DNA of 64,000 nucleotides. Source: Brachybacterium aquaticum. Lineage in GTDB: Bacteria; Actinomycetota; Actinomycetes; Actinomycetales; Dermabacteraceae. Where the stretch lies: assembly GCF_014204755.1 (NCBI RefSeq), contig NZ_JACHLZ010000001.1, positions 744,001 through 808,000 of the forward strand, in the 5' to 3' direction. Positions 1,383 to 28,715 of the stretch are shown piece by piece. Each line of letters begins with the position of its first letter. Within the stretch, counting starts at the first letter, position 1. The notes beneath the pieces are model-generated. The model was not told where the DNA came from. It worked only from the letters and a program-made list of their open reading frames with translations, and ran no database searches. The position numbers were made by a program, and so were the translations under genes.

Positions 1383-4300
1383 ATGTCTGTCCCGTCCCGA
1401 CCGAAGCGACGCCGACGCAGTCGCGCCACGGTCGTCACGACGGCCGTGCTCTCCGTGGTCGCGCTCGTCCTGACGGGCTTCGCCGTGAACTACGAGGGCC
1501 TGGACTCCTCGGACATCGACGTCTCCAACGGCGGCGTCTGGGTGAGCAGCGCCGAGGATTCGATGATTGGCCGCCTCAACGTCGACGCCGGGGAGCTGGA
1601 CGCACGCCTGTCCTCCACGGGCCAGGACCTCGACATCATCCAGTCCGGGTACCACGTCTTCGAGACCGGCCCCCGCGGCATGACTCCGATCAACACCGCG
1701 TCGATCACCCGCAACGGCCTGGTCGAGCTGCCGCCGGACTCCCGCGTCGCCATCGGTGGTGACCGTGTCGCGATCGCGTCCCCGGACGGCAAGGTCTGGG
1801 TCCTCTCCCCGGAGGAGGCCGCCGCATTCAGCCCCTCCGCGGTGGAGCCGAACGTCGAGACGGGCAACGGCATCGCCCCCATCGCCGTGAGCCCGACCGG
1901 CACCGTCTTCGTCCTCGAGGACAGCTCGCTGCACACCCTCAGGCGCCAGGTGGACAGCCGCAAAACCACCGTCGATCGGACGGTCGAGATCGCGGGCCTG
2001 TCCACCGACGACGAGCAGGTGCAGCTCACCGCCGTCGGCGACTCTCCGGTGATCCTGGACCGGGAGAACCGCATGCTGCGGCTCGGCACCGACGGCAGGG
2101 ACTACCCGCTGGAGGAGTACGGGATCTCCACCCTCGAAGGCGCCCAGGTGCAGCAGTCCGGCCCGTCCTCGGACAGGGTCGTCCTCGCCACCGCCGACAC
2201 GATGTTGCTGGTGCCCCTCGACGGCGGCACCGCGCAGACCATCGCCGCCGAGGGCACCGGCACCCAGATCGCCCAGCCGGCGCAGGTCCAGGGTTGCGCC
2301 TACGGTGCCTGGTCCGGGTCGATGAAGTTCGTGCGGGCCTGCGAGGGGCAGGACCCGGTCGTCGGCACCATCCCGCAGGCGGATCCCGCCTCGGACCTCA
2401 CCCTGCGTCAGAACCGCGACCTCGTGGTCCTCAACGACCAGGAGTTCGGGCTGTCCTGGGAGATCATGGACTCGATGGAGGTCGTCGACGCCTGGAAGAT
2501 CATGCAGGAGATCCAGACCGACGACTCCGAGACCGAGGAGGAGGAGACCCTCACCACCACGATCGAGAACCTGGCGGTCGAACGGAGCGAGAAGAACCGT
2601 CCTCCCGTGGCCAACGACGACACGTTCGGCGTGCGCCCCGGCGCGAGCGTCGTGCTGCCGGTGACCCGCAACGACGTGGACCCCGACGGGGACGTGCTCA
2701 CCGTGCGCGTCCAGGGCGACCAGCCGGGCATCGGCCGGGTCACCCCGATCCGCGGCGGCACCCAGCTGCAGGTCGAGGTCGACGAGGACGCCGCCACCAA
2801 CGCCGCGTTCACCTATGTCACCGACGACGGACGCGGCGGCACCGACACCGCCACCGTTACCCTCGAGGTCCGCGGCGAGATCGAGAACAGCGCGCCGCAG
2901 GCCGCGCAGGGCGGCATGACCAAGGTGCTGGTCCGCTCCGGCCAGGAGGTCAGCTTCAACCTCCTCCCGTATTGGGAGGACCCCGACGGGGACGCCTTCT
3001 ACCTCGCCAACGCGACCGTCGAGCCCGAGGACCTCGTCACCTTCCGTCCCGACGGGCAGGTGACCTTTAACGACGCGGGCCTGTCGCCCGGGACGAAGCA
3101 GGTCACCCTCACCTTCCGCGACGAGTTCGGGGAGACGGGGGAGGGGACCATCGAGGTCGAGTCCGTCACCGAGACCGATCTCGCGCCGATCACCACCGCT
3201 GACCACGTCAGCATCGTCGCGGGCCGCAACACGACGCTGAAGCCTCTGGCCAACGACCTGAACCCCAACGGCGGCAGCCTCGAGCTCATCAGCGTCGGCG
3301 CGGTCGAAGGCCTCGAGGTCGATCCCATCCTCGAATCGGGGACCGTGAACGTCGTCGGCGCCGCGGCGGGGACCTACTACCTCGAGTACACCGTCGGCGC
3401 GAGCGGGTCCAGCAGCACCTCCCTCGGCCTGATGCGCGTGGACGTCGTCGAGCCGAACGCCCAGAATCTCGAGCCGGTCGCCGTGGACGACATGGGCAAC
3501 GTCACCACCGGCGCCGACACCCTCGTGGACCCGCTCGAGAACGACGTGGACCCCACCGGCGGTGTGCTCGTCGTGAACTCCCTCGTGGTGCCCGCGAACA
3601 CCGGACTGAAGGCCACGGTCGTCGACCATCACCTGGTGCGCGTCGAGGCGGAGCCCGGCGCGACCGTCTCGCAGGAGCCGGTCCCGATCACCTACGAGGT
3701 CTCCAACTCCGCCGGCACCTCCACCGGCACCATCCGAATGATGGTCGTCAGCACCGACACCCAGTTCGCAACCCCGGAGGCCGTCCCCGACCGCGCAGTC
3801 GTGCGCGCCGGTGACATGGTGAACATCGACGTCACCGCCAACGACATCTCGCCCACCGGCTCCGAGCTCCACCTCGGCCAAGGCATGAACACCGATCGCT
3901 CCGAGGCGCTCGGCCATGCCGAGCCGAACCAGGACTACCTGCGCTTCCGCGCGAACGACGACGCCTCGGGCGAGGCCGTCGTGCGGTACAAGGTCGTCGA
4001 CGAGACCGGACGCACCGGTGCCGCTCTCGCGCACATCACGATCATCCCGAGGGACGCCGCGAACAACCCGCCGCGACCCGAGAACCTCACCGGCCGCGCC
4101 GTCGCCGGCACCCCGGTGCGCATCCCGGTGAGCACCACCGGCATCGACCCCGACGGCGACTCGGTGATGCTCACCGGCATCACCAGCCCGATGCCCACCC
4201 TCGGCGAGGTCGTCAGCGCCAACGGCGAGTGGATCGAGTACCTGCCCTATGAGGGCTCCGTCGGCACCGACCGCTTCCGCTATCAGATGATGGACCGCGA

Positions 4301-7300
4301 CGGTGCGATCGGCACCGCGGAGGTCCTCGTCGGCATCTCCGCACCCACCGACCGCAATCAGGCGCCTTTCGCCGTCGCCGACACCATCGAGGTGCGTCCC
4401 GACCGCGAGGTGCAGATCCCGGTCCTCACCAACGACACCGACCCCGAGGGCGACCCGCTCGCCGTCGTGCGCGAGGACGTCGAGGCGATGACCGAGATCG
4501 AGGTCGTCCCACCGGCCGGCGACGCCGAGGACGGCTTCGTCACCGTCACCACCTCCGCCGAGGAGGGCACCCACACCGTGCTCTACGCGGCGACCGACGG
4601 TCAGCTCAAGAGCAGCGCCTCCGCCACCGTGAAGGTCGCGGAGAACGCGCCGCCGCGCGCACCCGTCGCCCGCGACGACTTCGTCGCGATCGAGGACGTC
4701 CTCGACCCGGAGGCGGAGTACATCGACGTCGACGTGCTCGCCAACGACACCGACCCCGACGGCAGCACCAATGACCTCCAGGTCACCCTCAACGGCTCTT
4801 TCGACGGGGCGCAGCTCACCGGCGACCGGGTCCTTCGCATCACCCCGCAGGAGGAGCAGCAGCGCATCCGCTACATCATCCGGGACCAGGACGACCTCAC
4901 GTCTGCCGGGTACGTGTGGGTGCCGGGCACCGCCAAGCAGGCGCCCGTGTGGGTAGGGGAGACCCTCCAGGTCCAGGCCGGCGCCGAGGTCGAGATCGAC
5001 CTCGCCGACTCGGCCAATGTGCGCGTGCGCCCCGGCGGCCAGCCCGCGAAGATCACCGACACCTCCAAGGTGTCCTCCACCCACGGCGACGGCAGCGACC
5101 TGGTCCGCAACGAGACCACCCTCGTGTACCGCCCGGCCGCCGACTACTCCGGCGCCGACACCGTCACGGTCGAGGTCACGGACGGCGAGGTGGGCGACAC
5201 CAGCGCCGCGGTCGCGACGCTCGCCATCCCCGTCGAGGTGGCGGCCGAGGACACCAACCTCCCGCCGACGCTGCAGGGCGCGCTGCTCCAGGTCGAGCAG
5301 GGCGCTCCGCAAGCGAGCCTCGACCTCTCCGTCGGCGCCGAGGACCCCGAGGGCGACGAGCTGACCTACGCGCTCGGCACCTTCGACGCCCCCGCAGAGA
5401 TCGACGTGTCCCTGGACGACTCGATCCTGCTGGCGAGCGCGACCACCCAGGCGACCAAGGGACAGATCATCGACGTGCCCGTCACAGTCACCGACGGCAC
5501 CAACGACCCGGTCCCTGCCTCCGTGCAGCTCACGGTCGTCGGCTCGCAGCGCCCGCTGCTCACCACCGTCCGCGACGACGCGGTGATCAACGCGGGCGAG
5601 TCGCAGGCGATCCCGGTGCTCGAGAACGACTCCAACCCCTTCCCGGGCGGGAACCGCGAGCTGACCGACGCCTCGCTCATCTCGGGCGAGGGGAGCATCG
5701 AGCTCCAGGGCGACAACGTCGTGGTCACCCCCGCCGCGGACTACAAGGGCATCCTCACGGCCCAGTACGGGGTCCTGGACGACACCGGCGACCCCGACCG
5801 CAAGGTGACCGGCGAGATCCGGGTCGAGGTGCGCGGCTATCCCGATCCGCCGTCCGCTCCGCGCATCGGTGAGATCGGCGACGGCTTCGTGGAGCTGACC
5901 TTCAACGCCGGGAACGACAACGGCGCCCCCATCACCGGGTACACGGTCTCCGCCGCCTCCGGCGGCGCCGTCTCCCAGCAGTGCGCCTCGACCTCCTGCA
6001 TCATCACCGGGCTCACCAACGACACCGAGTACACCTTCCAGGTGGTGGCGACCAACGAGGTCGGCGACTCCGAGCCGTCGGCCCCGTCGGCCGCCGCCCG
6101 GCCCGACGTGCGCCCGAAGCGCCCCGGCGCCCCACAGGCCGAGCGCGGCGACCAGCAGCTGACCGTCGCGTGGAGCGCTCCGGTCAACCGCGGCTCGGCG
6201 ATCCAGAGCTACCTCGTGCAGATGCAGGACACCGCCGGTCAGGGAATCAGCACGCAGGAGGTCGCCGGCGGCTCGACCCAGACCGTGTTCTCGGGCCTGA
6301 CCAACGGCCGCGACTACCGTTTCCGCGTGCAGGCCTCGAACCTGGCCGACGAGCCCTCGGAGTGGTCGGACTGGTCCGTGGCGGAGCATCCCGCCGGCGT
6401 GCCCAAGGCGCCCAGCGGCACCGCCACGGCCGAGCGCATCAACGACCCGGTCGGCGGCGGCATCACCGTCACCTGGCCCGCGATGACCGCTGAGGAGGCC
6501 AACGGCGAGCCGATCACCCAGTACATCGTCACCGCCTCCTCGGGAGCGAGCCAGACCCTCGACGCGGGCACCCGCTCGACGACCTTCCGCGGGCTGGACG
6601 CGGACATCGAGCACACCTTCACCTACACCGGCGTGAACTCGGTGGGTCGGGGCACCGGCTCCTCGCGCCCCTCGAACGCCGTGACCCCGTGGGCCGAGCC
6701 CTCTGCGCCGACCGGCGTGACAGCCTCGATGCCCGACGAGGGCACCGGCAGCGGCCCCAACGGGCGGGCGAACGTCAGCTGGAACGCCGCGAACGGCAAC
6801 GGCACCTCCGTCACGAAGTATGTGGTGCGCTGGAACGGCGGATCGAAGACGGTGAATGCTCCGGCCACCTCGGTCGCCGTCGACGGTCTGCGCAACGGCA
6901 CCTCCTACCGGTTCACCGTCGAGGCCCGCAACGGCTTCGAGGCCGACGGCGGCGTCAGCAGGCAGTCCGATCCGTCCAACGCCGTCACCCCGTACACGAA
7001 ACCTGCGAATCCGTCGATCGCGAGCTCGAACGCGACCTGCGCGGATGCGAACGGCTGCCCCGTCACCCTGCGCGCCTCCGCACCCGGCGGCGACGGCGGG
7101 GCCGGCGGCAAGACCCTCCAGGTCCGCATCGACGGCGGCAGCTGGCAGGACTCCGGCACCTCGTTCAGCCGGACCCTCCAGGCGAAGTCCGGGGCGACGC
7201 ACCGGATCGAGGCCCGCGTGAAGAACGGCAAGGGCCTGGTCAGCGGCACCGTCACGGAGACGCGCAGGGCGCAGACCTACACGCCCCCTCCGCCTCCGCC

Positions 7301-7718
7301 GCCGCCCACGACGCAGCCGCCCACGACGCAGCCGCCGACCACGCAGCCGCCGACGACGCGGCCGCCGACCACTCAGCCGCCGACGACGCCGCCTCCCGCG
7401 CCGTCCTCGAACGCCGTCTTCGGTGCACAGGCGAACAACGACGTCTGCCAGTCGAACTACTGCCGAGTCGTGGACATCCGCGTCTCCAACCTCGAGCCGG
7501 GGATGACGTACGACATGTCGGTCTACACGAACGCCTCGCCGGCTTTCGCCGGTGGTCCGTGGACGGTGAACGGCTCCACGACCATCAAGATCACGGCCGA
7601 CGGAAGCGGCAACTACTCCACCTCCGGAGCGGGCTACCGATTCCTGTACGGGTACCCGGAGAACACCTTCACCGTGTCGATCAAGGGCAAGGCCGCGGGC
7701 ACCCACTCCTACCCGTGA
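1383..7718 (+). CDS. Giant membrane-anchored surface protein with propeller-like, Ig-like and fibronectin III domains
   Basis: Predicted extracellular structural or adhesive protein of 2111 aa. After an Arg/Lys-rich start, one hydrophobic segment (about 16-35) should anchor it with the rest outside. Residues 40-380 are beta-rich with repeating strand motifs and may form a beta-propeller. From about 410 to 1485 there are about ten Ig/cadherin-like repeats marked by ND-x-DPDGD-type signatures. Four fibronectin III domains follow (about 1490-1870), then another beta domain, a PPTTQ linker (about 1975-2004) and a C-terminal domain with paired Cys. No LPXTG motif or C-terminal anchor is seen. The ATG at 1383 is preferred because it places the basic stretch directly before the membrane segment; an in-frame ATG at 1275 would add 36 unlikely residues. 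It heads the operon, equivalent to fn3 of the bifidobacterial PFNA cluster. The ligand is unknown. Confidence 0.85.
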   Translation: MSVPSRPKRRRRSRATVVTTAVLSVVALVLTGFAVNYEGLDSSDIDVSNGGVWVSSAEDSMIGRLNVDAGELDARLSSTGQDLDIIQSGYHVFETGPRGMTPINTASITRNGLVELPPDSRVAIGGDRVAIASPDGKVWVLSPEEAAAFSPSAVEPNVETGNGIAPIAVSPTGTVFVLEDSSLHTLRRQVDSRKTTVDRTVEIAGLSTDDEQVQLTAVGDSPVILDRENRMLRLGTDGRDYPLEEYGISTLEGAQVQQSGPSSDRVVLATADTMLLVPLDGGTAQTIAAEGTGTQIAQPAQVQGCAYGAWSGSMKFVRACEGQDPVVGTIPQADPASDLTLRQNRDLVVLNDQEFGLSWEIMDSMEVVDAWKIMQEIQTDDSETEEEETLTTTIENLAVERSEKNRPPVANDDTFGVRPGASVVLPVTRNDVDPDGDVLTVRVQGDQPGIGRVTPIRGGTQLQVEVDEDAATNAAFTYVTDDGRGGTDTATVTLEVRGEIENSAPQAAQGGMTKVLVRSGQEVSFNLLPYWEDPDGDAFYLANATVEPEDLVTFRPDGQVTFNDAGLSPGTKQVTLTFRDEFGETGEGTIEVESVTETDLAPITTADHVSIVAGRNTTLKPLANDLNPNGGSLELISVGAVEGLEVDPILESGTVNVVGAAAGTYYLEYTVGASGSSSTSLGLMRVDVVEPNAQNLEPVAVDDMGNVTTGADTLVDPLENDVDPTGGVLVVNSLVVPANTGLKATVVDHHLVRVEAEPGATVSQEPVPITYEVSNSAGTSTGTIRMMVVSTDTQFATPEAVPDRAVVRAGDMVNIDVTANDISPTGSELHLGQGMNTDRSEALGHAEPNQDYLRFRANDDASGEAVVRYKVVDETGRTGAALAHITIIPRDAANNPPRPENLTGRAVAGTPVRIPVSTTGIDPDGDSVMLTGITSPMPTLGEVVSANGEWIEYLPYEGSVGTDRFRYQMMDRDGAIGTAEVLVGISAPTDRNQAPFAVADTIEVRPDREVQIPVLTNDTDPEGDPLAVVREDVEAMTEIEVVPPAGDAEDGFVTVTTSAEEGTHTVLYAATDGQLKSSASATVKVAENAPPRAPVARDDFVAIEDVLDPEAEYIDVDVLANDTDPDGSTNDLQVTLNGSFDGAQLTGDRVLRITPQEEQQRIRYIIRDQDDLTSAGYVWVPGTAKQAPVWVGETLQVQAGAEVEIDLADSANVRVRPGGQPAKITDTSKVSSTHGDGSDLVRNETTLVYRPAADYSGADTVTVEVTDGEVGDTSAAVATLAIPVEVAAEDTNLPPTLQGALLQVEQGAPQASLDLSVGAEDPEGDELTYALGTFDAPAEIDVSLDDSILLASATTQATKGQIIDVPVTVTDGTNDPVPASVQLTVVGSQRPLLTTVRDDAVINAGESQAIPVLENDSNPFPGGNRELTDASLISGEGSIELQGDNVVVTPAADYKGILTAQYGVLDDTGDPDRKVTGEIRVEVRGYPDPPSAPRIGEIGDGFVELTFNAGNDNGAPITGYTVSAASGGAVSQQCASTSCIITGLTNDTEYTFQVVATNEVGDSEPSAPSAAARPDVRPKRPGAPQAERGDQQLTVAWSAPVNRGSAIQSYLVQMQDTAGQGISTQEVAGGSTQTVFSGLTNGRDYRFRVQASNLADEPSEWSDWSVAEHPAGVPKAPSGTATAERINDPVGGGITVTWPAMTAEEANGEPITQYIVTASSGASQTLDAGTRSTTFRGLDADIEHTFTYTGVNSVGRGTGSSRPSNAVTPWAEPSAPTGVTASMPDEGTGSGPNGRANVSWNAANGNGTSVTKYVVRWNGGSKTVNAPATSVAVDGLRNGTSYRFTVEARNGFEADGGVSRQSDPSNAVTPYTKPANPSIASSNATCADANGCPVTLRASAPGGDGGAGGKTLQVRIDGGSWQDSGTSFSRTLQAKSGATHRIEARVKNGKGLVSGTVTETRRAQTYTPPPPPPPPTTQPPTTQPPTTQPPTTRPPTTQPPTTPPPAPSSNAVFGAQANNDVCQSNYCRVVDIRVSNLEPGMTYDMSVYTNASPAFAGGPWTVNGSTTIKITADGSGNYSTSGAGYRFLYGYPENTFTVSIKGKAAGTHSYP
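7305..7394 (+). repeat. Six 15-bp tandem repeats encoding PPTTQ
   Basis: Six consecutive 15-bp units, each encoding Pro-Pro-Thr-Thr-Gln or a close variant (the fourth has Arg, the last Pro). They form the flexible linker before the C-terminal domain of the fibronectin protein and could vary in copy number by slippage. Confidence 0.85.
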
Positions 7719-7767: not shown

Positions 7768-8742
7768 ATGAGCATGACCCCCGAACAGGCCCGCTGGTTC
7801 GCCGAGACCTTCGACAAGCTCGTCCAGAGCGTCGGGCAGGCCGTCCTCGGCAAGAACGAGGTGGTCCGTCTGGTGCTGACCGCGATGATGGCGCCCGGGC
7901 ACGTGCTGCTCGAGGACGCGCCCGGCACCGGCAAGACCTCGCTGGCCCGTTCGATCGCGGCGACCGTGCAGGGCACGAGCACCCGCATCCAGTTCACCCC
8001 GGACCTGCTGCCCTCGGACGTCACGGGCGTGACGATCTACGACCAGAACACGAAGTCCTTCGAGTTCCACAAGGGCCCGGTCTTCGCCAACGTCGTCCTC
8101 GCGGACGAGATCAACCGCGCCTCGCCCAAGACCCAGTCCGCCATGCTCGAGGTGATGGAGGAGGGGCGGGTCACCGTCGACGGCGTCACCCACGAGGTGG
8201 GCAACCCGTTCATGGTGATCGCGACCCAGAACCCGATCGAGCAGGCCGGCACCTACCGGCTCCCGGAGGCGCAGCTGGACCGCTTCCTGATGAAGACCTC
8301 CATCGGCTACCCCGACCACGCCTCCGCCGTGCAGATCCTCCAGGGCTCCGCGCTGCGCGACCGGTCCAAGCAGCTCACCCCGCGCATCTCCCTCCAGGCC
8401 GTCAACGACATGACCCAGCTCGCCTCCACCGTGCACGTGGACCCTGCGGTGCTGGAGTACGTCTCGCGTCTGATGGAGGAGACCCGTCTGGCCCCCGAGG
8501 TGCGGGTCGGCGTGTCCATCCGCGGCGCCCTCGCGCTCATGCGCGCGGTCAAGGTGTGGGCCGCCGTCAACGGCCGCCACTACGTCATCCCGGACGACGT
8601 CAAGGCACTGGTCGAGCCGGTGTGGCTGCACCGCTTCGTGCTCGACCCCGAGGCCGAGTTCGCGGGCACCACCGCGAAGTCCGTGATGACCAAGATCCTC
8701 AGCGAGGTGGCGCCTCCGCAGGCGCGCCAGCAGTCGGCATGA
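7768..8742 (+). CDS. MoxR-family AAA+ ATPase
   Basis: Cytoplasmic AAA+ chaperone-type ATPase of 324 aa, the normal MoxR length. Walker A is APGTGKTSLA with Lys56; Walker B is VLADEINR with Asp113-Glu114, followed by the family's SPKTQSAMLEVMEE segment and the sensor-1 stretch ATQNPIEQ. The gene lies 49 bp after the fibronectin gene and just before a DUF58 gene, the classic MoxR-DUF58-transglutaminase order. MoxR proteins usually act in maturation or assembly of partner proteins; here the partners are likely the adjacent membrane proteins. An in-frame ATG six bases downstream could also be used. The family call is secure; the client is inference. Confidence 0.95.
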   Translation: MSMTPEQARWFAETFDKLVQSVGQAVLGKNEVVRLVLTAMMAPGHVLLEDAPGTGKTSLARSIAATVQGTSTRIQFTPDLLPSDVTGVTIYDQNTKSFEFHKGPVFANVVLADEINRASPKTQSAMLEVMEEGRVTVDGVTHEVGNPFMVIATQNPIEQAGTYRLPEAQLDRFLMKTSIGYPDHASAVQILQGSALRDRSKQLTPRISLQAVNDMTQLASTVHVDPAVLEYVSRLMEETRLAPEVRVGVSIRGALALMRAVKVWAAVNGRHYVIPDDVKALVEPVWLHRFVLDPEAEFAGTTAKSVMTKILSEVAPPQARQQSA

Positions 8743-8790: not shown

Positions 8791-10206
8791 ATGAGCGATG
8801 ACAGCTCCCTCCCCACCGATACCGCGGACGCGCGCTCCTCGAAGGCCCGGGCGAAGAAGCGCCGACGGGCCGTTGCGGCCGAGGAGCGCGCCCGGTCCCG
8901 GCGCGAGCGTCGCCGGACACGGTCCGCGAAGCGTCGCGAGCGCGAGGGCGCCTCGCCCGCCGAGGAGACGACGCAGCAGGGCGCACCCGCGGCGAGCACC
9001 GGACTGCGCGGCGTGCGCGACCGGATCGTCGAGCTGTGGCTGCGCCGCATCCACCCGGTGCTCGACGTGGTCTCGCCGATCGGCTGGGCCGTGGCCGCCG
9101 CCGCGGCGGTCTGCTGGTTCCTCGGCATCTCCCTGCGCGTGACCGAGCTGAACGTCATCGCCCTCGCCCTGACCGTGCCGCTCGTCCTCGCGGCACTGTT
9201 CGTGCTGGGCAGGGCGAACTACCGGGTCTCCCTGGACCTGCAGACCCACCGCGTCGTCGTCGGCACCCGCGCCGTCGGCCGCGTCGAGGTCGCCAACCCC
9301 ACCCAGCGGGACATCCTGCCCTCCCGCATCGAGCTCGCCGTGGGCAAGGCGACCGCCCAGTTCCTCGTGCCGCGACTCGCGGCCGGCGCGGAGCACGAGG
9401 AGCTCTTCGCCGTGCCCACCAGGCGCCGCTCGGTGCTGACCGTCGGCCCCGTCCGCTCCGTGCGCGACGACCCGCTCTCGCTGATGCGCCGCCAGGTCAC
9501 CTGGGCGAAGGCCCAGGAGCTGTACGTCCATCCGCGCACCGTCCGCCTGGACGAGGCCGCCAGCGGCTTCCTCCGCGACCTCGAGGGCACCCCCTCCTCG
9601 GACCTCTCCAGCTCCGACATCGCCTTCCACGCTCTGCGCGACTACACGCCCGGCGACGACCGTCGCCACGTGCACTGGCGCACCACCGCCCGCACGGGCA
9701 AGCTCATGGTCCGCCAGTTCGAGGAGACCCGCCGCTCCCACGTGGTGGTGGCGCTGGACAACCTCGCCGAGCACTACGCGAGCGAGGACGAGTTCGAGCT
9801 GGCCGTCTCCGCCGCGGCCTCCCTCTCCGCCCAGACCTTCCGGGAGGAGAAGGAGCTGACCCCCTTCACCTTCGACGCGCGCCAGCGCACCGCCGGGATC
9901 CGACCGATGATGGACGACTACACCCTCGTCGAGCAGCTGCGCGAGCGCATCTCCTTCCACGAGCTCGGGCAGAAGGCTGCCGACCTGGCACCCAACGCCT
10001 CCGCAGTGATGATGGTGGTCGGCTCGCATACCACGGCGCGGGAGCTGAACTCCGCCGCGAACCAGCTGCCGATCGGCGTGCTCGCCGTCGCGATCCGCTG
10101 CGTCGAGGAGGCCGAGGTGCGACGCTCCGCGATCGGGTCGCTGGACGTGGTGACCGTCGGCTCGCTGGACACCCTCGCCCGCGCCCTGAGGGCGGTGGGC
10201 CGATGA
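8791..10206 (+). CDS. DUF58 domain membrane protein
   Basis: Membrane protein of 471 aa, partner of MoxR ATPases. A long Arg/Lys-rich cytoplasmic head (residues 1-70) precedes two adjacent transmembrane segments (about 95-136). The conserved DUF58 signature YTPGDDRRHVHWRTTAR lies at about residues 284-300, ahead of a vWA-like fold. A GGGAGGAGGGG ribosome-binding site lies just before the ATG at 8791. The stop overlaps the next start by four bases (ATGA), so the two proteins are probably made in fixed ratio. The molecular function of DUF58 is not established. Confidence 0.93.
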   Translation: MSDDSSLPTDTADARSSKARAKKRRRAVAAEERARSRRERRRTRSAKRREREGASPAEETTQQGAPAASTGLRGVRDRIVELWLRRIHPVLDVVSPIGWAVAAAAAVCWFLGISLRVTELNVIALALTVPLVLAALFVLGRANYRVSLDLQTHRVVVGTRAVGRVEVANPTQRDILPSRIELAVGKATAQFLVPRLAAGAEHEELFAVPTRRRSVLTVGPVRSVRDDPLSLMRRQVTWAKAQELYVHPRTVRLDEAASGFLRDLEGTPSSDLSSSDIAFHALRDYTPGDDRRHVHWRTTARTGKLMVRQFEETRRSHVVVALDNLAEHYASEDEFELAVSAAASLSAQTFREEKELTPFTFDARQRTAGIRPMMDDYTLVEQLRERISFHELGQKAADLAPNASAVMMVVGSHTTARELNSAANQLPIGVLAVAIRCVEEAEVRRSAIGSLDVVTVGSLDTLARALRAVGR

Positions 10207-20341: not shown

Positions 20342-20453
20342 GACGGCATGGGACGACGGGGCATGAGACGACGGGGGCATGACTTGATGAGCGCGATGGA
20401 CGACGACATGACGAGGGCGCGCGGGAGTGCCGAGGACGAAGGGGGACGCTGAG

Positions 20454-21277: not shown

Positions 21278-24200
21278 ATGCGCATCAAGCTCACGCTGCG
21301 CAGGCCCGAGGACCGGCTGACCGATCTCGAGGTCACCGCTGACGCGACCGCGACCGTCGCCGACGTCGCGAACGCCCTGTACCTCGCGGATCCGCTGCGC
21401 GGGGAGACCGAGGCGCCGGAGGGGCTGACCCTGCAGGTCCAGGACCCCGGCGCGGGCCCGGGCGCCACGGGGGTGCGCTCGCTGGACCGGTCGATCGACC
21501 TGATCCAGGCCGGTCTGCGCTCCGGCAGCGTGGTCTCCATCGCCCGCTCCTCCACCGAGTACGCGACCCGGCAGGAGTCCCGCGGTGCGGCGGTGGCGCT
21601 GATGCGCGTGCTGTCCGGCCCCGAGGCGGGGCGGGAGTTCCCCCTGCCCTCGGGCTCCAGCGTGATCGGCCGGGCGGGCGACCTGGACATCCGCATCGCC
21701 GACCCGATGCTGTCCAAGCGCCACGCCCGCATCAACGTCGGCGACTCGATCGAGATCGTCGATCTGCATTCCTCCAACGGCGTGGTGATCGGCGGGGAGC
21801 AGGTCCAGCGCGCCGTGATCGGCCCCGCGGACACCGTCCTCATCGGCGGCACCACCTTCTCGGTCATCGCCCTCCATCGCCTGGGCGGGACCGCGCCGAG
21901 CTCGCCGGTGGTCGAGTTCAACCGCTCCCCGCGCGTGGTGCCGCGCTTCCCCTACCGGCCCCTGAAGGCACCCACCCCGCCCAGGGAGCCCGCCCCGCAG
22001 TTTTTCCCGATCTTCATGATGTTCGCCCCGATCCTCATGGGCGGCTTCATGTTCTCGATGACCCGCAGTCCCTTCTCGCTCATGTTCGTGTTCATGATGC
22101 CGATGATGGCCACGGCGGGATACCTGAACCGCAAGTTCCAGCAGAAGAAGGTGCTCGAGCGGCAGATCCAGAACTTCGAGGAGGGGCTCGCCTCCCTGAA
22201 GCGCCGTGTCACCGCCGCGCAGGACCTCGAGCGGGCGGTGCGCCTGGTGGAGGCGCCGTCCGCGGCGGACACCGTCGATGCCGCCTTCCGCCTGGGGCGT
22301 CTGCTGTGGACCCATCGGCCCGAGCACAACGCCTTCGGCACGGTCCGCCTTGGCCTCGGGATCGCCGAGTCGCGGGTGGGGATCGAGATGCCCGGGGAGA
22401 ACGACGCGATCCCCACGTACTACGACATGCTCGACGACATGCACGAGGAGTACAGGATGATCGCCGGCGTGCCGGTGGTCGCCGAGCTCCGGTACGCGGG
22501 CAACCTCGGCGTGGCCGGGGGAGGGGACGAGGCCGACGGGGTCGCCCGCGGCATCGTCACCCAGATCTTCGCGCTGCATTCGCCGGCGGAGGTCGCGATC
22601 GCCGCGATCACCTCCCGCTCCAGCCGTGACATGTGGCAGTGGCTGAAGTGGCTGCCACACACCTCCAGCCCGCACTCCCCGCTGCCGGGCGACCACCTGG
22701 CCGACACCCCCGGGCGGTGCACCTCCCTGCTCTCGCGGATCGAGGAGCTCATCGAGCAGCGCGCCGGGGACGCCGCCCCGCAGCTGCGCACGCCGATGAC
22801 GGTCGACGTCACCCAGGAGACCCCGATCCCGCCGGAGCCGGTCACCCCGAACCTGGTGGTGATCATCGAGGACGACGCCCCCGTGGACCGTGCGCGCCTG
22901 GTCCGCATCGCCGAGCGGGGCCCCGACGTGGGCGTGCACGTCATCTGGTGCGCCTCCAACGTCGCCGCGCTGCCCGCCGCCTGCCGCACTTACGTGTCCG
23001 TGGACGAGTCGGTCGAGGGGGCGAGCGCCGGTCACGTGCGGGTGGGGGAGCGGTACTACCCCGTCGCGGTGGAGACGGTCTCGGTCGAGGTCGCCTCGGG
23101 CGTGGCCCGCCACCTCTCCCCGGTCGTTGACGCCGGCGTCCCGATCGACGACGACTCCGACCTGCCCCGCGCGATCTCCTACCTCAAGCTCGGGGGCATG
23201 GCCATGGCCGAGGACCCCGACCACATCATCGAGCGGTGGAAGGAGAACAACTCCCTCACCCCGCGCGACGGCTCCGAACCGCAGCGGCGCAAGCACGACG
23301 CGAACCTGCGCGGCCTCATCGGCCACAACGGCCAGGACGCCTTCCACCTCGACCTGCGCACCAACGGCCCCCACGCCCTCGTGGGCGGCACCACCGGCGC
23401 CGGCAAGTCCGAGTTCCTGCAGGCCTGGGTGATGGGCATGGCCACCGCCCACAGCCCCGACCGGGTCACCTTCCTGTTCGTGGACTACAAGGGCGGCGCC
23501 GCCTTCGCCGACGCGGTCGAGCTGCCCCACGCGGTGGGCCTGGTCACCGACCTTTCGCAGCACCTGGTGCGCCGCGCGCTGACCTCGCTGCGGGCCGAGC
23601 TCCACTACCGCGAGCACCTGCTGAACCGGAAGAAGGCCAAGGACCTCGTCTCCCTGGAGCGCACCGGTGACCCCGAGGCGCCGCCGAGCCTGATCATCAT
23701 CGTGGACGAGTTCGCGGCCCTGGCCAAGGAGATCCCCGAGTTCGTCGACGGCGTCGTGGACGTCGCCGCGCGAGGCCGCTCGCTGGGCCTGCACCTGATC
23801 CTGGCGACCCAGCGCCCCGCGGGCGTCATCAAGGACAACCTGCGCGCCAACACCAACCTGCGCATCGCGCTGCGCATGGCCGACGAGGCCGACTCCAAGG
23901 ACATCCTCGGCGACAAGATGGCCGCCCACTTCGACCCGGGCATCCCCGGTCGCGCAGCGGCCAAGACCGGTCCCGGCCGCATCGCCACCTTCCAGACCGG
24001 GTACGCGGGCGGCTGGACCACCGACGAGCCCGAGCGGGCCCGTATCGACATCGTCGAGAAGGACTTCGGCACCGGCGAGCAGTGGGACATCCCCTCCCCG
24101 CCCACCAAGGAGGTCAAGGACCCCGGCCCCAACGACATCTCCCGCATCGTCGCGACCGTGAAGGCCGCCGCCGAGCGGGCCGGGGTGCCGGCCCCGCGCA

Positions 24201-25744
24201 AGCCCTGGCTGTCCGAGCTCGCCGACGCCTACGACCTCTCCCGCCTGCCCACGCGCCGCACCGACGAGGAGCTGCTGCTGGGCGTCATGGACGTCCCCGA
24301 GGACCAGGCCCAGCCCACCATCTCCTACTACCCCGACCGCGACGGCAACATGGCCGTCTGCGGCACCGGCGGCTCGGGCAAGTCCACGACCCTGCGCACC
24401 CTGGCGATCTCCGCGGCCTCGACCGTGCGCGGCGGGCCGGTGCACGTGTACGGCCTGGACTTCGGCGCCTCGGGCCTGTCGATGCTCGAGGAGCTCCCGC
24501 ATGTCGGCTCGATCGTGCCGGGCGATGACGAGGAGCGGGTGATCCGCCTGCTGCGCACCCTGCGCCAGCTGATCGACGACCGCGCGAAGGAGTTCTCCCG
24601 CGTGCGCGCCGGGTCGGTGGCCGAGTACCGCGACCTCGCCGGGAAGCCGGACACCCCGCGCGTGCTGCTGCTCGTGGACGGCATGGCCGCGTTCCGCGAG
24701 GCGTACGACTACTCCAACCTCACCAAGTGGTTCACCACCTTCGTGCAGATCGCGACCGACGGCCGCCAGGTGGGTGTGCACGTGATCGTCACCGGCGACC
24801 GCCCGAACGCCATCCCCACCTCGCTCGGCTCCTCCATCCAGCGCCGCCTGATCCACCGCATGGCCAGCGACGACGACTATGCGAACTTCGGCGAGCCGCG
24901 CGACGTGCTGGACGGCTCCTCGCCCCCCGGCCGCGCGATCCTCGACGGTCACGAGGTGCAGGTCGCGGTGCACGGCGGCGACTCGAACGTCGCCATCCAG
25001 TCCCGTGAGGTCACCAAGCTCGCCCAGGCCATGCGCCGTGCCGGCGTGCCCGAGGCGCCTGCGATCGAGCGCCTGCCCGAGCGGGTCGAGTTCGAGACAC
25101 TCCGCCCCGTCGTCGGCGGCCGCCCGGTGCTGGGCCTGGCCGACGAGACCCTCGCCGAGATCACCTACGAGCCGCGGGGTGCCTTCATGGTCACCGGCCC
25201 CATGGGCTCGGGCCGCACCACGGCGATGCTCACCATCGCCACGGGTCTGAAGGCGATGGACGACCCGATGCGTCTGGTGCGCTTCTCCGCCCGCCGCACC
25301 CCGCTGACCGGGCTGCCGATCTGGGACGTGGAGGCCTCCGACCCGGACACCGTGCGCGACCTCGCCGCCCAGCTGCGCCAGACCATCGACTCCGGTGCCG
25401 TGGGGGAGGGCAAGCTCGCCCTGTTCATCGATGGGGTCGCCGACTTCACCGGCTCCGGGATCGAGAACGACCTGGACAAGCTGATCCGCGCCTCCACCCG
25501 TGAGGGGCAGTTCGTGGTGGGCGAGAACGAGTCCGCGTCCTGGTCGCAGGCCTACGTCCTCGCCCAGCCCTTCAAGGCCGGGCGTCGCGGCCTGCTGCTG
25601 CAGCCCTCCGACATGGACGGCGATTCGCTGCTCGGCACTGGATTGGGGAGGATCCGTCGAGCCGACTTCCCGGCCGGGCGCGGCTTCCTGGTCTACAGAG
25701 GCCAGGCGATGAAGCTGCAGGTCGCGCAGATCACCACGGGCTGA
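21278..25744 (+). CDS. EssC-like type VII secretion ATPase (FHA and FtsK/SpoIIIE domains)
   Basis: Membrane motor of 1488 aa expected to drive export of WXG100 proteins. An N-terminal 80 residues of possible beta-grasp fold precede an FHA domain (about 108-205, with VIGRAGDLDI, LSKRHARI and HSSNG) and two membrane helices (about 243-282). Three P-loop domains follow. The first has Walker A Lys710 (GTTGAGKSEF) and a full Walker B, IIIVDEF. The second has Lys1035 (GTGGSGKST) but VDG. The third has Arg1313 in place of Lys (GPMGSGRTT) and IDG. Only the first domain looks catalytically complete. The FHA-then-helices order resembles firmicute EssC more than mycobacterial EccC. A strong GGGGGAGGAGAG site precedes ATG 21278. 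No EccB/D/E, mycosin or EsaA/EssA/EssB gene is nearby. Confidence 0.92.
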   Translation: MRIKLTLRRPEDRLTDLEVTADATATVADVANALYLADPLRGETEAPEGLTLQVQDPGAGPGATGVRSLDRSIDLIQAGLRSGSVVSIARSSTEYATRQESRGAAVALMRVLSGPEAGREFPLPSGSSVIGRAGDLDIRIADPMLSKRHARINVGDSIEIVDLHSSNGVVIGGEQVQRAVIGPADTVLIGGTTFSVIALHRLGGTAPSSPVVEFNRSPRVVPRFPYRPLKAPTPPREPAPQFFPIFMMFAPILMGGFMFSMTRSPFSLMFVFMMPMMATAGYLNRKFQQKKVLERQIQNFEEGLASLKRRVTAAQDLERAVRLVEAPSAADTVDAAFRLGRLLWTHRPEHNAFGTVRLGLGIAESRVGIEMPGENDAIPTYYDMLDDMHEEYRMIAGVPVVAELRYAGNLGVAGGGDEADGVARGIVTQIFALHSPAEVAIAAITSRSSRDMWQWLKWLPHTSSPHSPLPGDHLADTPGRCTSLLSRIEELIEQRAGDAAPQLRTPMTVDVTQETPIPPEPVTPNLVVIIEDDAPVDRARLVRIAERGPDVGVHVIWCASNVAALPAACRTYVSVDESVEGASAGHVRVGERYYPVAVETVSVEVASGVARHLSPVVDAGVPIDDDSDLPRAISYLKLGGMAMAEDPDHIIERWKENNSLTPRDGSEPQRRKHDANLRGLIGHNGQDAFHLDLRTNGPHALVGGTTGAGKSEFLQAWVMGMATAHSPDRVTFLFVDYKGGAAFADAVELPHAVGLVTDLSQHLVRRALTSLRAELHYREHLLNRKKAKDLVSLERTGDPEAPPSLIIIVDEFAALAKEIPEFVDGVVDVAARGRSLGLHLILATQRPAGVIKDNLRANTNLRIALRMADEADSKDILGDKMAAHFDPGIPGRAAAKTGPGRIATFQTGYAGGWTTDEPERARIDIVEKDFGTGEQWDIPSPPTKEVKDPGPNDISRIVATVKAAAERAGVPAPRKPWLSELADAYDLSRLPTRRTDEELLLGVMDVPEDQAQPTISYYPDRDGNMAVCGTGGSGKSTTLRTLAISAASTVRGGPVHVYGLDFGASGLSMLEELPHVGSIVPGDDEERVIRLLRTLRQLIDDRAKEFSRVRAGSVAEYRDLAGKPDTPRVLLLVDGMAAFREAYDYSNLTKWFTTFVQIATDGRQVGVHVIVTGDRPNAIPTSLGSSIQRRLIHRMASDDDYANFGEPRDVLDGSSPPGRAILDGHEVQVAVHGGDSNVAIQSREVTKLAQAMRRAGVPEAPAIERLPERVEFETLRPVVGGRPVLGLADETLAEITYEPRGAFMVTGPMGSGRTTAMLTIATGLKAMDDPMRLVRFSARRTPLTGLPIWDVEASDPDTVRDLAAQLRQTIDSGAVGEGKLALFIDGVADFTGSGIENDLDKLIRASTREGQFVVGENESASWSQAYVLAQPFKAGRRGLLLQPSDMDGDSLLGTGLGRIRRADFPAGRGFLVYRGQAMKLQVAQITTG

Positions 25745-26000: not shown

Positions 26001-26270
26001 GTGAACGCCACGAAGGGTATGAACATCGAAGAGGTCCGACGGATGTCGGTCCAGCTGCACGACGCGGCCGAGGAGATCACCCGCATCGAGCAGGAGCTGA
26101 CCTCCGGCCTCGAGGGCGTGGACTGGACCGGTCCCGACGCGGACCGCTTCCGCGGCCAGTGGTCCGGGGAGATGGTCCCTGCGCTGCAGCAGATCATGAA
26201 CGCGGTCAACGAGCTGGGCGAGACCGCCAGCCGCAACGCCGACGAGCAGGAGACGACCTCCAACAACTGA
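26001..26270 (+). CDS. WXG100 family secreted protein (first, unpaired copy)
   Basis: ESAT-6-like helical-hairpin protein of 89 aa, a probable substrate of the EssC-like ATPase 257 bp upstream. The central WxG turn is VDWTGPDADRF; both flanks are amphipathic helices and there is no signal peptide. The GTG at 26001 is chosen because AGGAAAGGGGA lies at the right distance; the in-frame ATG at 26019 would remove only six residues. It diverges clearly from the other four WXG100 proteins but shares the KGM-N/T start and the Asn/Gln/Ser-rich tail (TTSNN). It has its own promoter and a very strong terminator, so it is a single-gene unit. Confidence 0.9.
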   Translation: MNATKGMNIEEVRRMSVQLHDAAEEITRIEQELTSGLEGVDWTGPDADRFRGQWSGEMVPALQQIMNAVNELGETASRNADEQETTSNN

Positions 26271-26290
26271 GGTCGGAGCGTCGTCGACGG

Positions 26291-26334
26291 CAGGGCGGCG
26301 GCCCGAGCGGATCACCGCTCGGGCCGCCGCCCTG
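26291..26334 (+). terminator. Strong intrinsic terminator after the first WXG100 gene
   Basis: A perfect 20-bp inverted repeat with a four-base ATCA loop begins 21 bp after the stop codon. There is no T tract, as is common in high-GC actinobacteria. Confidence 0.85.
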
Positions 26335-26384
26335 CACTGGTATGTTGGTCGCCGTAGCGAGCGGGGACGAACGGAGAACCATCC

Positions 26385-26864
26385 ATGGCGAAGAGCATCG
26401 CGTACCCGAGCCCGGACTTCCCGGGCCCTCCGCGAGTTCGCATCGATGTTCCCGAGGACTGGGAGCCGCTCACCGTCCCCGGCGTCCAGCTCGCCGTCGC
26501 TCAGCCCCGTGTGGAGGGGCGCTTCCGCGCCAACGTGGTGATCACGGTGCAGCGGTTCGGCCCGGACTTCACCCTCGACGCCGCCCGTGCCGGGCTCGAG
26601 CAGCGCAAGGCCGCGCTGCCCCAGCTGGAGGAGCTCGGGAGCGGAGAGATCGAGGTGGAGGGGACCACCTGGATCGCCAGCGAGTACGGCTACACCCAGC
26701 CCGGCCGGCCCACCGTCGTCCAGGCCGCGCGCTACGCGGTGATCGACCGCGGCGTCGCCAAGGACGTGCTTGAGGTCGTGGGCAGCTGCGGCGCCGAGGG
26801 CGCCGAAGAGGAGATCGAGACGGTCCGCACCATCCAGGACTCGGTGCGACTCGACGTCCACTGA
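26385..26864 (+). CDS. LpqN/LpqT-like (Mog1/PsbP-fold) small protein
   Basis: Protein of 159 aa with the pattern of the LpqN/DUF1795 family: a VPEDWEPL segment (about 21-28), central ANVVITVQRF, and a late helix-strand ending in TIQDSVRLDV. It lacks a signal peptide or lipobox, unlike mycobacterial LpqN, so it is probably cytoplasmic or exported by another route. A -10-like TATGTT (26341-26346) and a GGAGAA ribosome-binding site precede the ATG at 26385, and terminators lie on both sides, so it is its own unit. Its place between WXG100 genes suggests a chaperone or accessory role in their export. Family assignment is by eye. Confidence 0.7.
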   Translation: MAKSIAYPSPDFPGPPRVRIDVPEDWEPLTVPGVQLAVAQPRVEGRFRANVVITVQRFGPDFTLDAARAGLEQRKAALPQLEELGSGEIEVEGTTWIASEYGYTQPGRPTVVQAARYAVIDRGVAKDVLEVVGSCGAEGAEEEIETVRTIQDSVRLDVH

Positions 26865-26887
26865 CCCCCGCTCCATACCCCACGAAG

Positions 26888-27013: not shown

Positions 27014-27117
27014 GGTGTCATCACCTGGGGGACAGGGATCGAGGATGTGGCCTGGAGGTCGCGGAGGTCCGGTTCGGTGGGTGGGGACCAAGTACTGGAT
27101 ACGACGTGGAGGACACC

Positions 27118-27378
27118 ATGAAGAAGGGCATGACCCCCGAGGCTGTGGAGCAGATGGGGACCCAGATCACCGAGGCCGGCGAGCAGGTTCAGCAGATCTT
27201 CACTGCTGTGCAGGGTCGCGTGACCGAGTTCGACTGGACCGGTGAGGACCGTGACCGCTACATCCAGGAGTTCGAGTCGACCGTGGGTCAGCTCGTGCAG
27301 CAGGTGCAGCAGCAGGCGCAGGAGTTCGGTGATCGTGCGCGGAACAACGCCAACCAGCAGCGTGACGCGTCGGCCTGA
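27118..27378 (+). CDS. WXG100 protein, first of pair, copy 1
   Basis: Secreted helical-hairpin protein of 86 aa with the turn FDWTGEDRDRY at its centre and a Gln-rich second helix (QQVQQQAQEF). No signal peptide is seen. GTGGAGG precedes the ATG at 27118. With the next gene it forms an EsxA/EsxB-like pair, expected to leave the cell as a heterodimer through the EssC-like ATPase. Many codons end in T or G rather than C, unlike the surrounding genes, which may reflect strong expression or foreign origin. The protein is identical to that encoded at 28040-28300. Confidence 0.93.
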   Translation: MKKGMTPEAVEQMGTQITEAGEQVQQIFTAVQGRVTEFDWTGEDRDRYIQEFESTVGQLVQQVQQQAQEFGDRARNNANQQRDASA

Positions 27379-27455
27379 TCGGTCGGTAGTTTCTCTTCCT
27401 TCTCTTCTTTTTCTGCAGTTCTTCGGCTCCTGGGTAGGGGCGAAAGGGGTTTGTG

Positions 27456-27725
27456 ATGGCTTTCAAGGGTATGAATCCGGATCAGGGGCGCGAGGTCGCG
27501 ACCGGGATCAACGATGCGGTGGGTCAGATTCTCGACGCGATCGATGCGGTGACGAACGTGGTCAACTCGGTCGAGTGGGTCGGCCCGGACTACGACGCGT
27601 ACCGCGATGACTGGAACGGTTTCGTCTCCGGTGCGGTGAACCAGCTCGTGGAGGGTATGAAGACCAAGGCGGATGAGCTGAACCAGCACGCCGAGGAGCA
27701 GGACTCCACCTCGAACCAGCAGTGA
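27456..27725 (+). CDS. WXG100 protein, second of pair, copy 1
   Basis: Protein of 89 aa beginning MAFKGMNPDQG, with the turn VEWVGPDYDAY near residue 42 and an acidic Glu/Gln/Asn/Ser tail (EEQDSTSNQQ) that may carry the export signal. The ATG at 27456 is preceded by AAAGGGG; a GTG immediately before it is less likely. It is co-transcribed with the 86-aa partner across a 77-bp gap that contains a striking pyrimidine tract. It differs from the copy at 28378 only by Val for Ala at about residue 22. Closest in the window to the unpaired 89-aa protein. Confidence 0.93.
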   Translation: MAFKGMNPDQGREVATGINDAVGQILDAIDAVTNVVNSVEWVGPDYDAYRDDWNGFVSGAVNQLVEGMKTKADELNQHAEEQDSTSNQQ

Positions 27726-27754
27726 GGTAGGTGCGGGCTTCGGTCCGTGGCGTG

Positions 27755-27793
27755 GAAGGGCCCCGTTCCCTTTCGTGGGGGGCGGGGCCCTTC
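27755..27793 (+). terminator. Intrinsic terminator of WXG100 pair, copy 1
   Basis: GAAGGGCCCCG (27755-27765) pairs perfectly with CGGGGCCCTTC (27783-27793) across a 17-base loop. The duplicated unit ends exactly at the last base of this stem. Confidence 0.85.
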
Positions 27794-27890
27794 GGCGTGC
27801 TCACGGGATGCGGCTGGCTGTCCACAGTGCTCCGACGGTCCGTAATTTTCTGACCTGCGGCGATGCTCTCCAAAGGGATGGGGAGGAGCA

Positions 27891-27935
27891 TGGGGAGTTG
27901 TCCCCATCGCGAAGTGGTGGTGGGGGTTCTAGGGT
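27891..27935 (+). promoter_or_regulatory. Promoter and palindromic operator of WXG100 pair, copy 2
   Basis: Same as copy 1 except that the -35 position reads TCGCGA instead of TCCCGA. That is the only non-coding difference between the two units, so the copies may differ in promoter strength. Confidence 0.6.
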
Positions 27936-28039
27936 GGTGTCATCACCTGGGGGACAGGGATCGAGGATGTGGCCTGGAGGTCGCGGAGGTCCGGTTCGGT
28001 GGGTGGGGACCAAGTACTGGATACGACGTGGAGGACACC

Positions 28040-28300
28040 ATGAAGAAGGGCATGACCCCCGAGGCTGTGGAGCAGATGGGGACCCAGATCACCGAGGCCG
28101 GCGAGCAGGTTCAGCAGATCTTCACTGCTGTGCAGGGTCGCGTGACCGAGTTCGACTGGACCGGTGAGGACCGTGACCGCTACATCCAGGAGTTCGAGTC
28201 GACCGTGGGTCAGCTCGTGCAGCAGGTGCAGCAGCAGGCGCAGGAGTTCGGTGATCGTGCGCGGAACAACGCCAACCAGCAGCGTGACGCGTCGGCCTGA
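28040..28300 (+). CDS. WXG100 protein, first of pair, copy 2
   Basis: Encodes the same 86-aa WXG100 protein as 27118-27378, with no nucleotide difference in the coding region. It keeps the same ribosome-binding site and 5' leader. It should double the dose of this partner or allow it to be made under slightly different promoter strength. Confidence 0.93.
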   Translation: MKKGMTPEAVEQMGTQITEAGEQVQQIFTAVQGRVTEFDWTGEDRDRYIQEFESTVGQLVQQVQQQAQEFGDRARNNANQQRDASA

Positions 28301-28377
28301 TCGGTCGGTAGTTTCTCTTCCTTCTCTTCTTTTTCTGCAGTTCTTCGGCTCCTGGGTAGGGGCGAAAGGGGTTTGTG

Positions 28378-28647
28378 ATGGCTTTCAAGGGTATGAATCC
28401 GGATCAGGGGCGCGAGGTCGCGACCGGGATCAACGATGCGGCGGGTCAGATTCTCGACGCGATCGATGCGGTGACGAACGTGGTCAACTCGGTCGAGTGG
28501 GTCGGCCCGGACTACGACGCGTACCGCGATGACTGGAACGGTTTCGTCTCCGGTGCGGTGAACCAGCTCGTGGAGGGTATGAAGACCAAGGCGGATGAGC
28601 TGAACCAGCACGCCGAGGAGCAGGACTCCACCTCGAACCAGCAGTGA
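28378..28647 (+). CDS. WXG100 protein, second of pair, copy 2
   Basis: An 89-aa WXG100 protein identical to the product of 27456-27725 except for Ala at about residue 22 in the first helix (codon GCG for GTG). The WVG turn and the acidic, polar tail are unchanged. Expected to pair with the 86-aa protein encoded just upstream. Confidence 0.93.
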   Translation: MAFKGMNPDQGREVATGINDAAGQILDAIDAVTNVVNSVEWVGPDYDAYRDDWNGFVSGAVNQLVEGMKTKADELNQHAEEQDSTSNQQ

Positions 28648-28676
28648 GGTAGGTGCGGGCTTCGGTCCGTGGCGTG

Positions 28677-28715
28677 GAAGGGCCCCGTTCCCTTTCGTGG
28701 GGGGCGGGGCCCTTC
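28677..28715 (+). terminator. Intrinsic terminator of WXG100 pair, copy 2
   Basis: Identical stem to 27755-27793. The duplicated segment ends with it. Confidence 0.85.

Follow-up and report, generated by a model that had tools for sequence, protein, structure and literature searches.

A PFNA-type gene cluster running into an EssC-type ATPase and WXG100 genes in Brachybacterium aquaticum: a possible kinase-controlled variant of type VII secretion

The subject of this work is a gene cluster of Brachybacterium aquaticum that may encode a form of type VII secretion under the control of a Ser/Thr kinase. It lies in a stretch of 64,000 nucleotides, hereafter the window, which corresponds to bases 744001-808000 of the 3.45 Mb single-contig genome. 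Between window positions 1383 and 28647, and entirely on the forward strand, nine genes of the type found in the PFNA operon of bifidobacteria precede the gene of an EssC-type ATPase, five WXG100 genes, and one DcrB-like gene. All the genes listed in an initial annotation, made from the sequence alone, were recovered on this strand by Pfam/NCBIfam comparison, together with the DcrB-like gene, which had not been listed. Brachybacterium predominates, among the matches listed, in the closest named relatives of the window EssC. The features, in window coordinates, are as follows.

1383..7718, +, giant envelope protein, 2111 amino acids, TsdI-like and bifidobacterial FN3-like (Pfam/NCBIfam)
7768..8742, +, MoxR AAA+ ATPase (AAA_3, 212 bits)
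8791..10206, +, DUF58 membrane protein with two hydrophobic segments (Pfam/NCBIfam)
10203..12713, +, TgpA-like pseudo-transglutaminase with eight hydrophobic segments and Glu530 at the catalytic Cys position (TgpA_N and Transglut_core)
12713..14815, +, RDD-FHA protein: weak Zn-ribbon, RDD membrane domain, C-terminal FHA domain (Pfam/NCBIfam)
14812..15684, +, PP2C phosphatase (Pfam/NCBIfam)
15681..18662, +, FHA scaffold: N-terminal domain, low-complexity linker, C-terminal FHA domain (Pfam/NCBIfam)
18659..20341, +, membrane Ser/Thr kinase with one hydrophobic segment and an extracellular tail (Pkinase)
20427..21164, +, FHA-like protein (FHA2) with a degenerate phosphothreonine site (by alignment; no Pfam match)
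21278..25744, +, EssC-type motor: predicted ubiquitin-like domain (1-95), FHA domain (about 105-200), transmembrane region, FtsK/SpoIIIE domains
26001..26270, +, WXG100 protein 1 (WXG1), W-x-G in mid-protein
26271..26345, +, hairpin 3' of WXG1, z -7.6, terminator-like, without a T run
26385..26864, +, small protein, possibly an accessory protein or chaperone (weak DcrB match, E 0.04)
27118..27378, +, WXG100 protein 2 (WXG2), W-x-G
27456..27725, +, WXG100 protein 3 (WXG3), W-x-G
28040..28300, +, WXG100 protein 4 (WXG4), copy of WXG2, W-x-G
28378..28647, +, WXG100 protein 5 (WXG5), copy of WXG3, W-x-G

Six consecutive genes, from DUF58 through the kinase, overlap by 1-4 bp, and gaps of 85, 113, and 256 bp precede FHA2, precede EssC, and separate EssC from WXG1, respectively. 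Conservation was counted in 70 named loci, each with at least about 9.5 kb of upstream sequence; these remain from the best 80 of 541 confirmed relatives after ten on short contigs were dropped. The pseudo-transglutaminase, PP2C, FHA scaffold, kinase, and FHA2 genes are each present in 70 of these 70 loci, the RDD gene is present in 69, and a single gene order is kept in 65.

Two features typical of type VII secretion, an ATPase of the EssC/EccC type and WXG100 proteins encoded alongside it, are found here. The window EssC matches FtsK_SpoIIIE (175.6 bits) and, under the respective cut-offs, TIGR03928 (542 bits, cut-off 778) and TIGR03924/3925; its closest solved chains are 4nh0, YukB, and EccC5. 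One hydrophobic segment (241-261) is seen at the threshold used, and a second is likely by eye. Since a first fold search with residues 1-215 returned FHA rows, the most N-terminal region was modelled alone, and comparison of the AlphaFold2 model with PDB structures predicts for residues 1-95 a beta-grasp, ubiquitin-like fold, the Foldseek labels counted being those that we take to denote ubiquitin folds. This region, overlooked in the initial annotation, is thus predicted to be a fused counterpart of the YukD/EccD ubiquitin-like domain, a call that comes from fold comparison and not from sequence. YukD was also sought by sequence, and PF08817 had no significant match in the genome, EssC included. 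The FHA domain that follows keeps the canonical phosphothreonine residues.

The tested catalytic residues of the kinase and the tested Asp/Gly residues of PP2C are each kept in 98 of 98 rows, and the phosphothreonine site is intact in 95 or more of 97 rows for RDD-FHA and in 98 or more of 99 for the FHA scaffold. Phosphothreonine-binding residues are therefore kept in three of the four FHA domains, namely, those of RDD-FHA, the scaffold, and EssC. FHA2, which has no Pfam match, keeps the Arg, but its Ser/His/Asn positions hold other residues, invariant in 102 of 102 rows. The identity of the scaffold with TseJ (DUF6382-FHA) was considered and rejected, as no DUF6382 match was obtained. The idea that kinase and phosphatase act through four FHA proteins is hence in keeping with the intact catalytic residues and with three canonical sites, the motor's among them, but not with the fourth, which is degenerate.

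The TgpA-like protein, first described as a transglutaminase homologue, lacks the catalytic Cys in all 105 aligned rows. In the 94 rows above a bit threshold, the window included and many of them near-copies, its position (located with what we take to be the canonical TgpA motif) holds Asp, Glu, or Gln, and the catalytic His is retained in 71; the 11 further rows, three of which come from family f4, carry Asp or Ser. A transglutaminase paralogue at 111 kb of the same genome keeps both the Cys (GYCEQFA) and the His, and two more transglutaminase-core proteins in the genome fell outside the motif pattern applied. Nothing seen here points to the surface filament proposed earlier: the giant protein comprises one hydrophobic segment (13-37), an N-terminal domain of about 400 residues, nine Big_9 Ig-like stretches, three fn3 stretches, and a Pro/Thr linker, with no C-terminal transmembrane segment at the threshold used. 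Because it has its own N-terminal membrane segment, the giant is probably targeted to the Sec pathway.

The five WXG100 genes score under the Pfam/NCBIfam cut-offs (e.g., 33.9 versus 44.85 bits), and all carry W-x-G. A profile built from 20 WXG100 proteins, partly the window's own, and termed A4, has among its invariant positions W42, G44, Q83, and S87 of WXG1. It matches 13 proteins of the genome, i.e., the five of the locus and the N-terminus of eight longer proteins encoded elsewhere (L206-L212; at 391.8, 722, 1085, 1814.7, 1816, 2164, 2752, and 3274 kb). These measure 222-647 residues after trimming and have glycine-rich, hydrophobic, or alpha/beta-hydrolase-like C-termini, one showing a lipase-like GHSQGG and three being hydrophobic or glycine-rich; none of the eight C-termini passed a Pfam cut-off. 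The eight proteins are candidate cargo. A4-type WXG100 proteins occur in 21 of 36 chosen genomes. In family f6, they were found in all 11 genomes with an EssC of the window clade, in some of them only away from EssC, and in none of the four genomes lacking it, of which two (G099, G280) carry a divergent EssC and two (G240, G261) have none in the 20 kb fetched. They are absent from the six f7 genomes.

Conventional type VII parts were sought throughout the genome. FtsK_SpoIIIE matches comprise an FtsK-like protein at 2089 kb, the two domains of EssC, and a frame at 412 kb, so that EssC is single and no second type VII ATPase was found by this search. The 412-kb frame (L005, 412124-412393 of the genome) belongs to an FtsK/SpoIIIE-type protein of about 480 residues, not an EssC, which perhaps derives from an integrative element. 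At E<=1, the genome has no match to EccB (PF05108), an absence without positive control since none of the 14 control genomes exceeded the cut-off, and none to the EssB/YukC pseudokinase (PF10140), for which one control genome did. For YukD (PF08817), the best E value was 0.37, nothing being significant, and one control genome was over the cut-off. With one EssC and no significant EccB, YukC, or YukD match, no conventional type VII locus turned up elsewhere with these models. The claim that the standard membrane partners of T7SSa and T7SSb are missing is supported as far as EccB, EssB/YukC, and YukD, the three models searched, are concerned.

The association of the two halves of the cluster was surveyed in 297 genomes of the taxonomic order, using FHA2 as the PFNA marker (six weaker marker matches in one family being left out) and assigning EssCs to the window clade at about 1040 bits or more, or as clear fragments; EssC counts are among the matches listed. 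The window-clade EssC was found in at least 87 genomes, the PFNA marker in 124, and both in at least 73; in 61 of these 73 they lie within 30 kb, in five far apart on one contig, and in seven on different contigs. The Ig N-terminal domain of the giant occurs in 149 genomes, among them 74 of the 87 that carry EssC and 111 of the 124 that carry the marker, and each pair of markers is associated with a Fisher p <1e-14 (uncorrected for kinship). Of 20 neighbourhoods read, ten show the canonical order (RDD lying elsewhere in G145), two are rearranged, one has the PFNA genes about 9 kb further away, and one lacks the kinase domain; in the remaining six, EssC has no PFNA set beside it, RDD-FHA being present in four (G083, G054, G119, G132) and PP2C in one. 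Beyond the order, 45 of 296 genomes sampled across the phylum gave an EssC/EccC-like match at E<=1e-80. In another class, Ig, MoxR, DUF58, TgpA, and a kinase gene stand near a divergent EssC in G512; in the same class, Ig, MoxR, and TgpA genes stand near EssC in G463; and in G427, FHA2, kinase, and scaffold genes lie about 7 kb from EssC. Other phylum stretches read, e.g., G385 and G481, have no PFNA-type genes. The linkage of EssC to PFNA-type genes noticed in the window thus recurs in several arrangements across the phylum.

Among known systems, T7SSd of Actinomycetota (TsdA/C/D/H/I) is described as uniting WXG100 proteins, an FHA-bearing EssC, a membrane kinase, TsdH, and the Ig giant TsdI (PMC11217815; Garrett, Higginson and Palmer 2024). 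It is reported to lack a ubiquitin-like protein, and its giant has an N-terminal signal and a C-terminal transmembrane segment. The window locus, also from Actinomycetota, has counterparts of the WXG100 proteins, the FHA-EssC with its conserved phosphothreonine motif, the membrane Ser/Thr kinase, and the giant Ig-like envelope protein (TsdH was not searched for), and could accordingly be read as the published T7SSd in another order, new in host range at most. We consider this improbable: the locus adds seven conserved genes (PP2C, FHA scaffold, FHA2, RDD-FHA, MoxR, DUF58, and TgpA), its giant has only the N-terminal segment, its ubiquitin-like domain appears fused to EssC, and a quick tree of 56 EssCs separates 44 rows, with the window, from 12 rows with that of the T7SSd-like genome G082 (SH-aLRT 99), although branches are long, that of G082 among them, and the rows include no named TsdC. 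The G082 locus (L198) combines WXG100, kinase, Big_13 giant, EssC, and FHA genes, and G138 (L220) shows part of such a set. The N-terminus of the G082 EssC looks similar by eye; given a probability of 15% in the profile comparison of residues 1-95 (hhalign), a fused ubiquitin-like domain could conceivably be shared with T7SSd.

Resemblance to the bifidobacterial PFNA operon extends to the kinase, the Ig/Fn3 giant, MoxR, DUF58, the TgpA-like protein, PP2C, and FHA. That operon was described as unique to bifidobacteria, with the kinase gene first and with a TGM protein presumed to be a cysteine protease (PMC8430577). In the window, the kinase gene comes eighth, and EssC, WXG100, and RDD-FHA genes are added; further, clusters of this type occur widely across the order, and no row read has the Cys; the three f4 rows among them argue against a cysteine protease function of the bifidobacterial TGM. 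Family f4 is probably Bifidobacteriaceae, since its cluster L214 carries the complete published order, kinase-Ig-MoxR-DUF58-TG-PP2C-FHA. Hidden Markov models from the window cluster match five out of five of kinase, giant, MoxR, DUF58, and TGM in L214, and four out of five each in L213 and L215. In three other f4 genomes (G082, G138, and G259), EssC lies about 24-26 kb from the PFNA Ig gene.

As to T7SSb (EssC/EssB/EsaA/EssA/EsaB), whose EssC bears two FHA domains without binding site (PMC11217815), the window EssC resembles its counterpart in having an FHA region at the N-terminus, a membrane anchor, and ATPase domains in tandem. It differs by a single intact FHA domain placed after the ubiquitin-like one, as does the genome by the missing EssB/YukC and YukD matches and by an active-looking kinase instead of a pseudokinase. 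T7SSa/ESX systems consist of EccB-E and MycP, with a ubiquitin-like domain on the polytopic EccD, and YxxxD/E is a C-terminal export motif. An EccC-type ATPase and a ubiquitin-like domain are shared with the window, whereas EccB has no match, the ubiquitin-like domain is carried by the motor, and no C-terminal YxxxD/E was seen by eye in the window's WXG100 proteins. In the open-licence literature consulted, the supplements of PMC11217815 being outside its scope, we recognised no description of the Micrococcales cluster, of an EssC-ubiquitin fusion, or of the lost Cys.

Taken together, gene content, intact catalytic and FHA residues, the predicted ubiquitin fold, the lost Cys, linkage, and the joint presence of EssC and WXG100 proteins in one family lead us to propose, with a probability of roughly 0.6, that the locus encodes a kinase-controlled variant of type VII secretion in which PFNA proteins are envelope and control partners; we leave it unassigned to T7SSa, b, or d. 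EssC would be the ATP-driven motor, joining at its N-terminus ubiquitin-like (as in YukD/EsaB and the cytosolic domain of EccD) and FHA domains which elsewhere reside on separate proteins or are lacking, and the exported cargo would be WXG100 proteins and longer proteins beginning with a WXG100 domain. The places of EccB and EssB may be taken by RDD-FHA, by the pseudo-transglutaminase, a multi-pass protein, together with DUF58, and by the Ig/Fn3 giant, which would span the wall; MoxR could remodel or load these envelope partners. The kinase would phosphorylate threonines on parts of the machine, after which the complex would be kept together through the FHA domains of RDD-FHA, of the scaffold, and of EssC; PP2C would reset it. 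The direction of export, the physical assembly, and the control by phosphorylation are inferred, the coupling of PFNA proteins to EssC from conservation. If this is correct, Actinomycetota would possess a type VII system whose non-canonical membrane partners form a testable set, and type VII export would be tied to kinase/phosphatase/FHA control in environmental bacteria.

Several observations weigh against this proposal. The ubiquitin-like assignment of EssC 1-95 is a model with a middling Z and many other ubiquitin-fold proteins tied, and the sequence profile against the PDB is not significant: of six weak rows, the best is a redesigned ubiquitin (E 0.067), three are SAMP1 rows near E 0.9, and two unrelated proteins stand in between. 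The WXG100 genes have the appearance of separate transcription units, as strong hairpins (z -7.6, -5.2, and -5.3) follow WXG1, WXG3, and WXG5, so that they are probably transcribed separately; a consensus terminator scan did not list the hairpin after WXG1. No A4-type WXG100 was found in five genomes with a window-clade EssC (G083, G205, G119, G225, and G067), other small WXG-like frames adjoining EssC in G205. In 30 of 72 named loci, all of Arthrobacter, Pseudarthrobacter, or Paenarthrobacter, no WXG100-like frame lies within 5 kb of EssC by a filter on W-x-G motif, length, and base composition that may miss genes, and narrow WXG100 profiles, which may equally miss some, found nothing near EssC in 33 of 70. 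MoxR, DUF58, and TgpA are proteins of assembly type. Together with these 30 loci and with the giant being the largest gene of the cluster, this would suit a system whose main cargo is the Ig/Fn3 giant or a wall assembly, WXG100 proteins serving as small accessory proteins or toxin chaperones. We deem such a system highly improbable, in view of the probable Sec targeting of the giant and of the 11 out of 11 f6 genomes in which A4-type WXG100 accompanies the window-clade EssC.

The two halves can also live apart, as seen from the six neighbourhoods cited above and from the 12 of 73 genomes in which they are separated. EssC occurs without the PFNA marker in 14 of 87 genomes, and 51 of 124 marker genomes lack the window EssC clade. 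In G211 and G255, RDD, PP2C, FHA2, EssC, and WXG100 genes are kept with no Ig, MoxR, TG, or kinase gene in the stretch read; conversely, PFNA genes stand without EssC in the stretch read of, e.g., G240. The single machine postulated in the initial annotation is therefore too strong a view, while its two halves, each of which also occurs alone, are not routinely unlinked, with 61 of 73 pairs within 30 kb. One may thus suppose two independent systems sharing a locus and at most co-regulated, i.e., a kinase-controlled surface adhesin or sensor, as proposed for PFNA of bifidobacteria, whose copies have been studied as host-immune sensors, and a minimal exporter made of EssC, RDD-FHA, and WXG100. 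In line with this, RDD-FHA is the sole cluster gene beside EssC in G083, G054, and G119, where EssC is away from the PFNA genes, and the f4 clusters L213, L214, and L215 (one gene being uncalled in L213 and L215) show no EssC in the 20 kb read. Such independence seems to us rather unlikely, as the pairing persists, or has arisen anew, in several arrangements, also with divergent EssCs. The 51 of 124 refers to one EssC clade and overstates independence, since in at least seven of the 51 genomes (G255, G211, G038, G260, G249, G099, and G280) a divergent EssC lies no more than about 30 kb from PFNA genes, most of the remaining 44 not having been inspected; some EssC lies within about 30 kb in at least 68 of the 124. 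Furthermore, in G500, from another class, Ig-MoxR-DUF58-TgpA genes lead straight into EssC, and in G205 and G270 EssC is still accompanied by an Ig-repeat giant, MoxR, TG, and a protein weakly resembling RDD, kinase and FHA2 not being seen there; their giant matches in the repeats, its N-terminal domain being matched elsewhere in the genome.

A broader, tentative extension of the kinase-controlled type VII proposal, against which we would still lay the odds, is that an ancient type VII machine of actinobacteria, with a motor bearing ubiquitin-like and FHA domains, has the PFNA operon, that of bifidobacteria included, as its envelope and control half. The pseudo-transglutaminase, DUF58, and RDD-FHA would then replace EccB/D/E or EssA/B/EsaA, the giant would be a wall conduit, bifidobacterial copies would have been separated from the motor, and the ubiquitin-like protein reported missing from T7SSd would be the N-terminus of its EssC, for which an explanation would thereby be on offer. 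The reading of the bifidobacterial PFNA operon would change as well, relatives of its 'transglutaminase/cysteine protease' lacking the catalytic Cys and often standing beside secretion motors.

Other observations concern individual loci and neighbouring features. In G090 (L043, L063), of the same genus, the kinase domain and Ig/Fn3 repeats were not seen in the 20 kb upstream, but the extracellular tail of the kinase and the giant's N-terminal domain persist near EssC; this is perhaps a natural kinase-less version. Luteimicrobium xylanilyticum (L119) has two EssC genes, which belong to different branches; WXG100 and DcrB-like genes lie in the roughly 9 kb that separate them. The EssC cluster of L161 (NZ_JADHDY010000023.1), labelled Sporosarcina (Bacillota), falls inside Micrococcaceae in the tree, the assembly being probably contaminated or mislabelled. 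In the window, the DcrB-like gene between WXG1 and WXG2, whose product we take to be PsbP-like, is matched by homologues in 23 of 70 related loci. The second WXG100 pair arose from a tandem duplication (27006-27757 and 27928-28679; 752 bp, one mismatch, offset 922), and the pair is likewise doubled in the Brachybacterium loci L105, L106, and L110. Downstream of the cluster, three tRNA genes (Tyr, Thr, and Met) occupy window positions 29632-30001.

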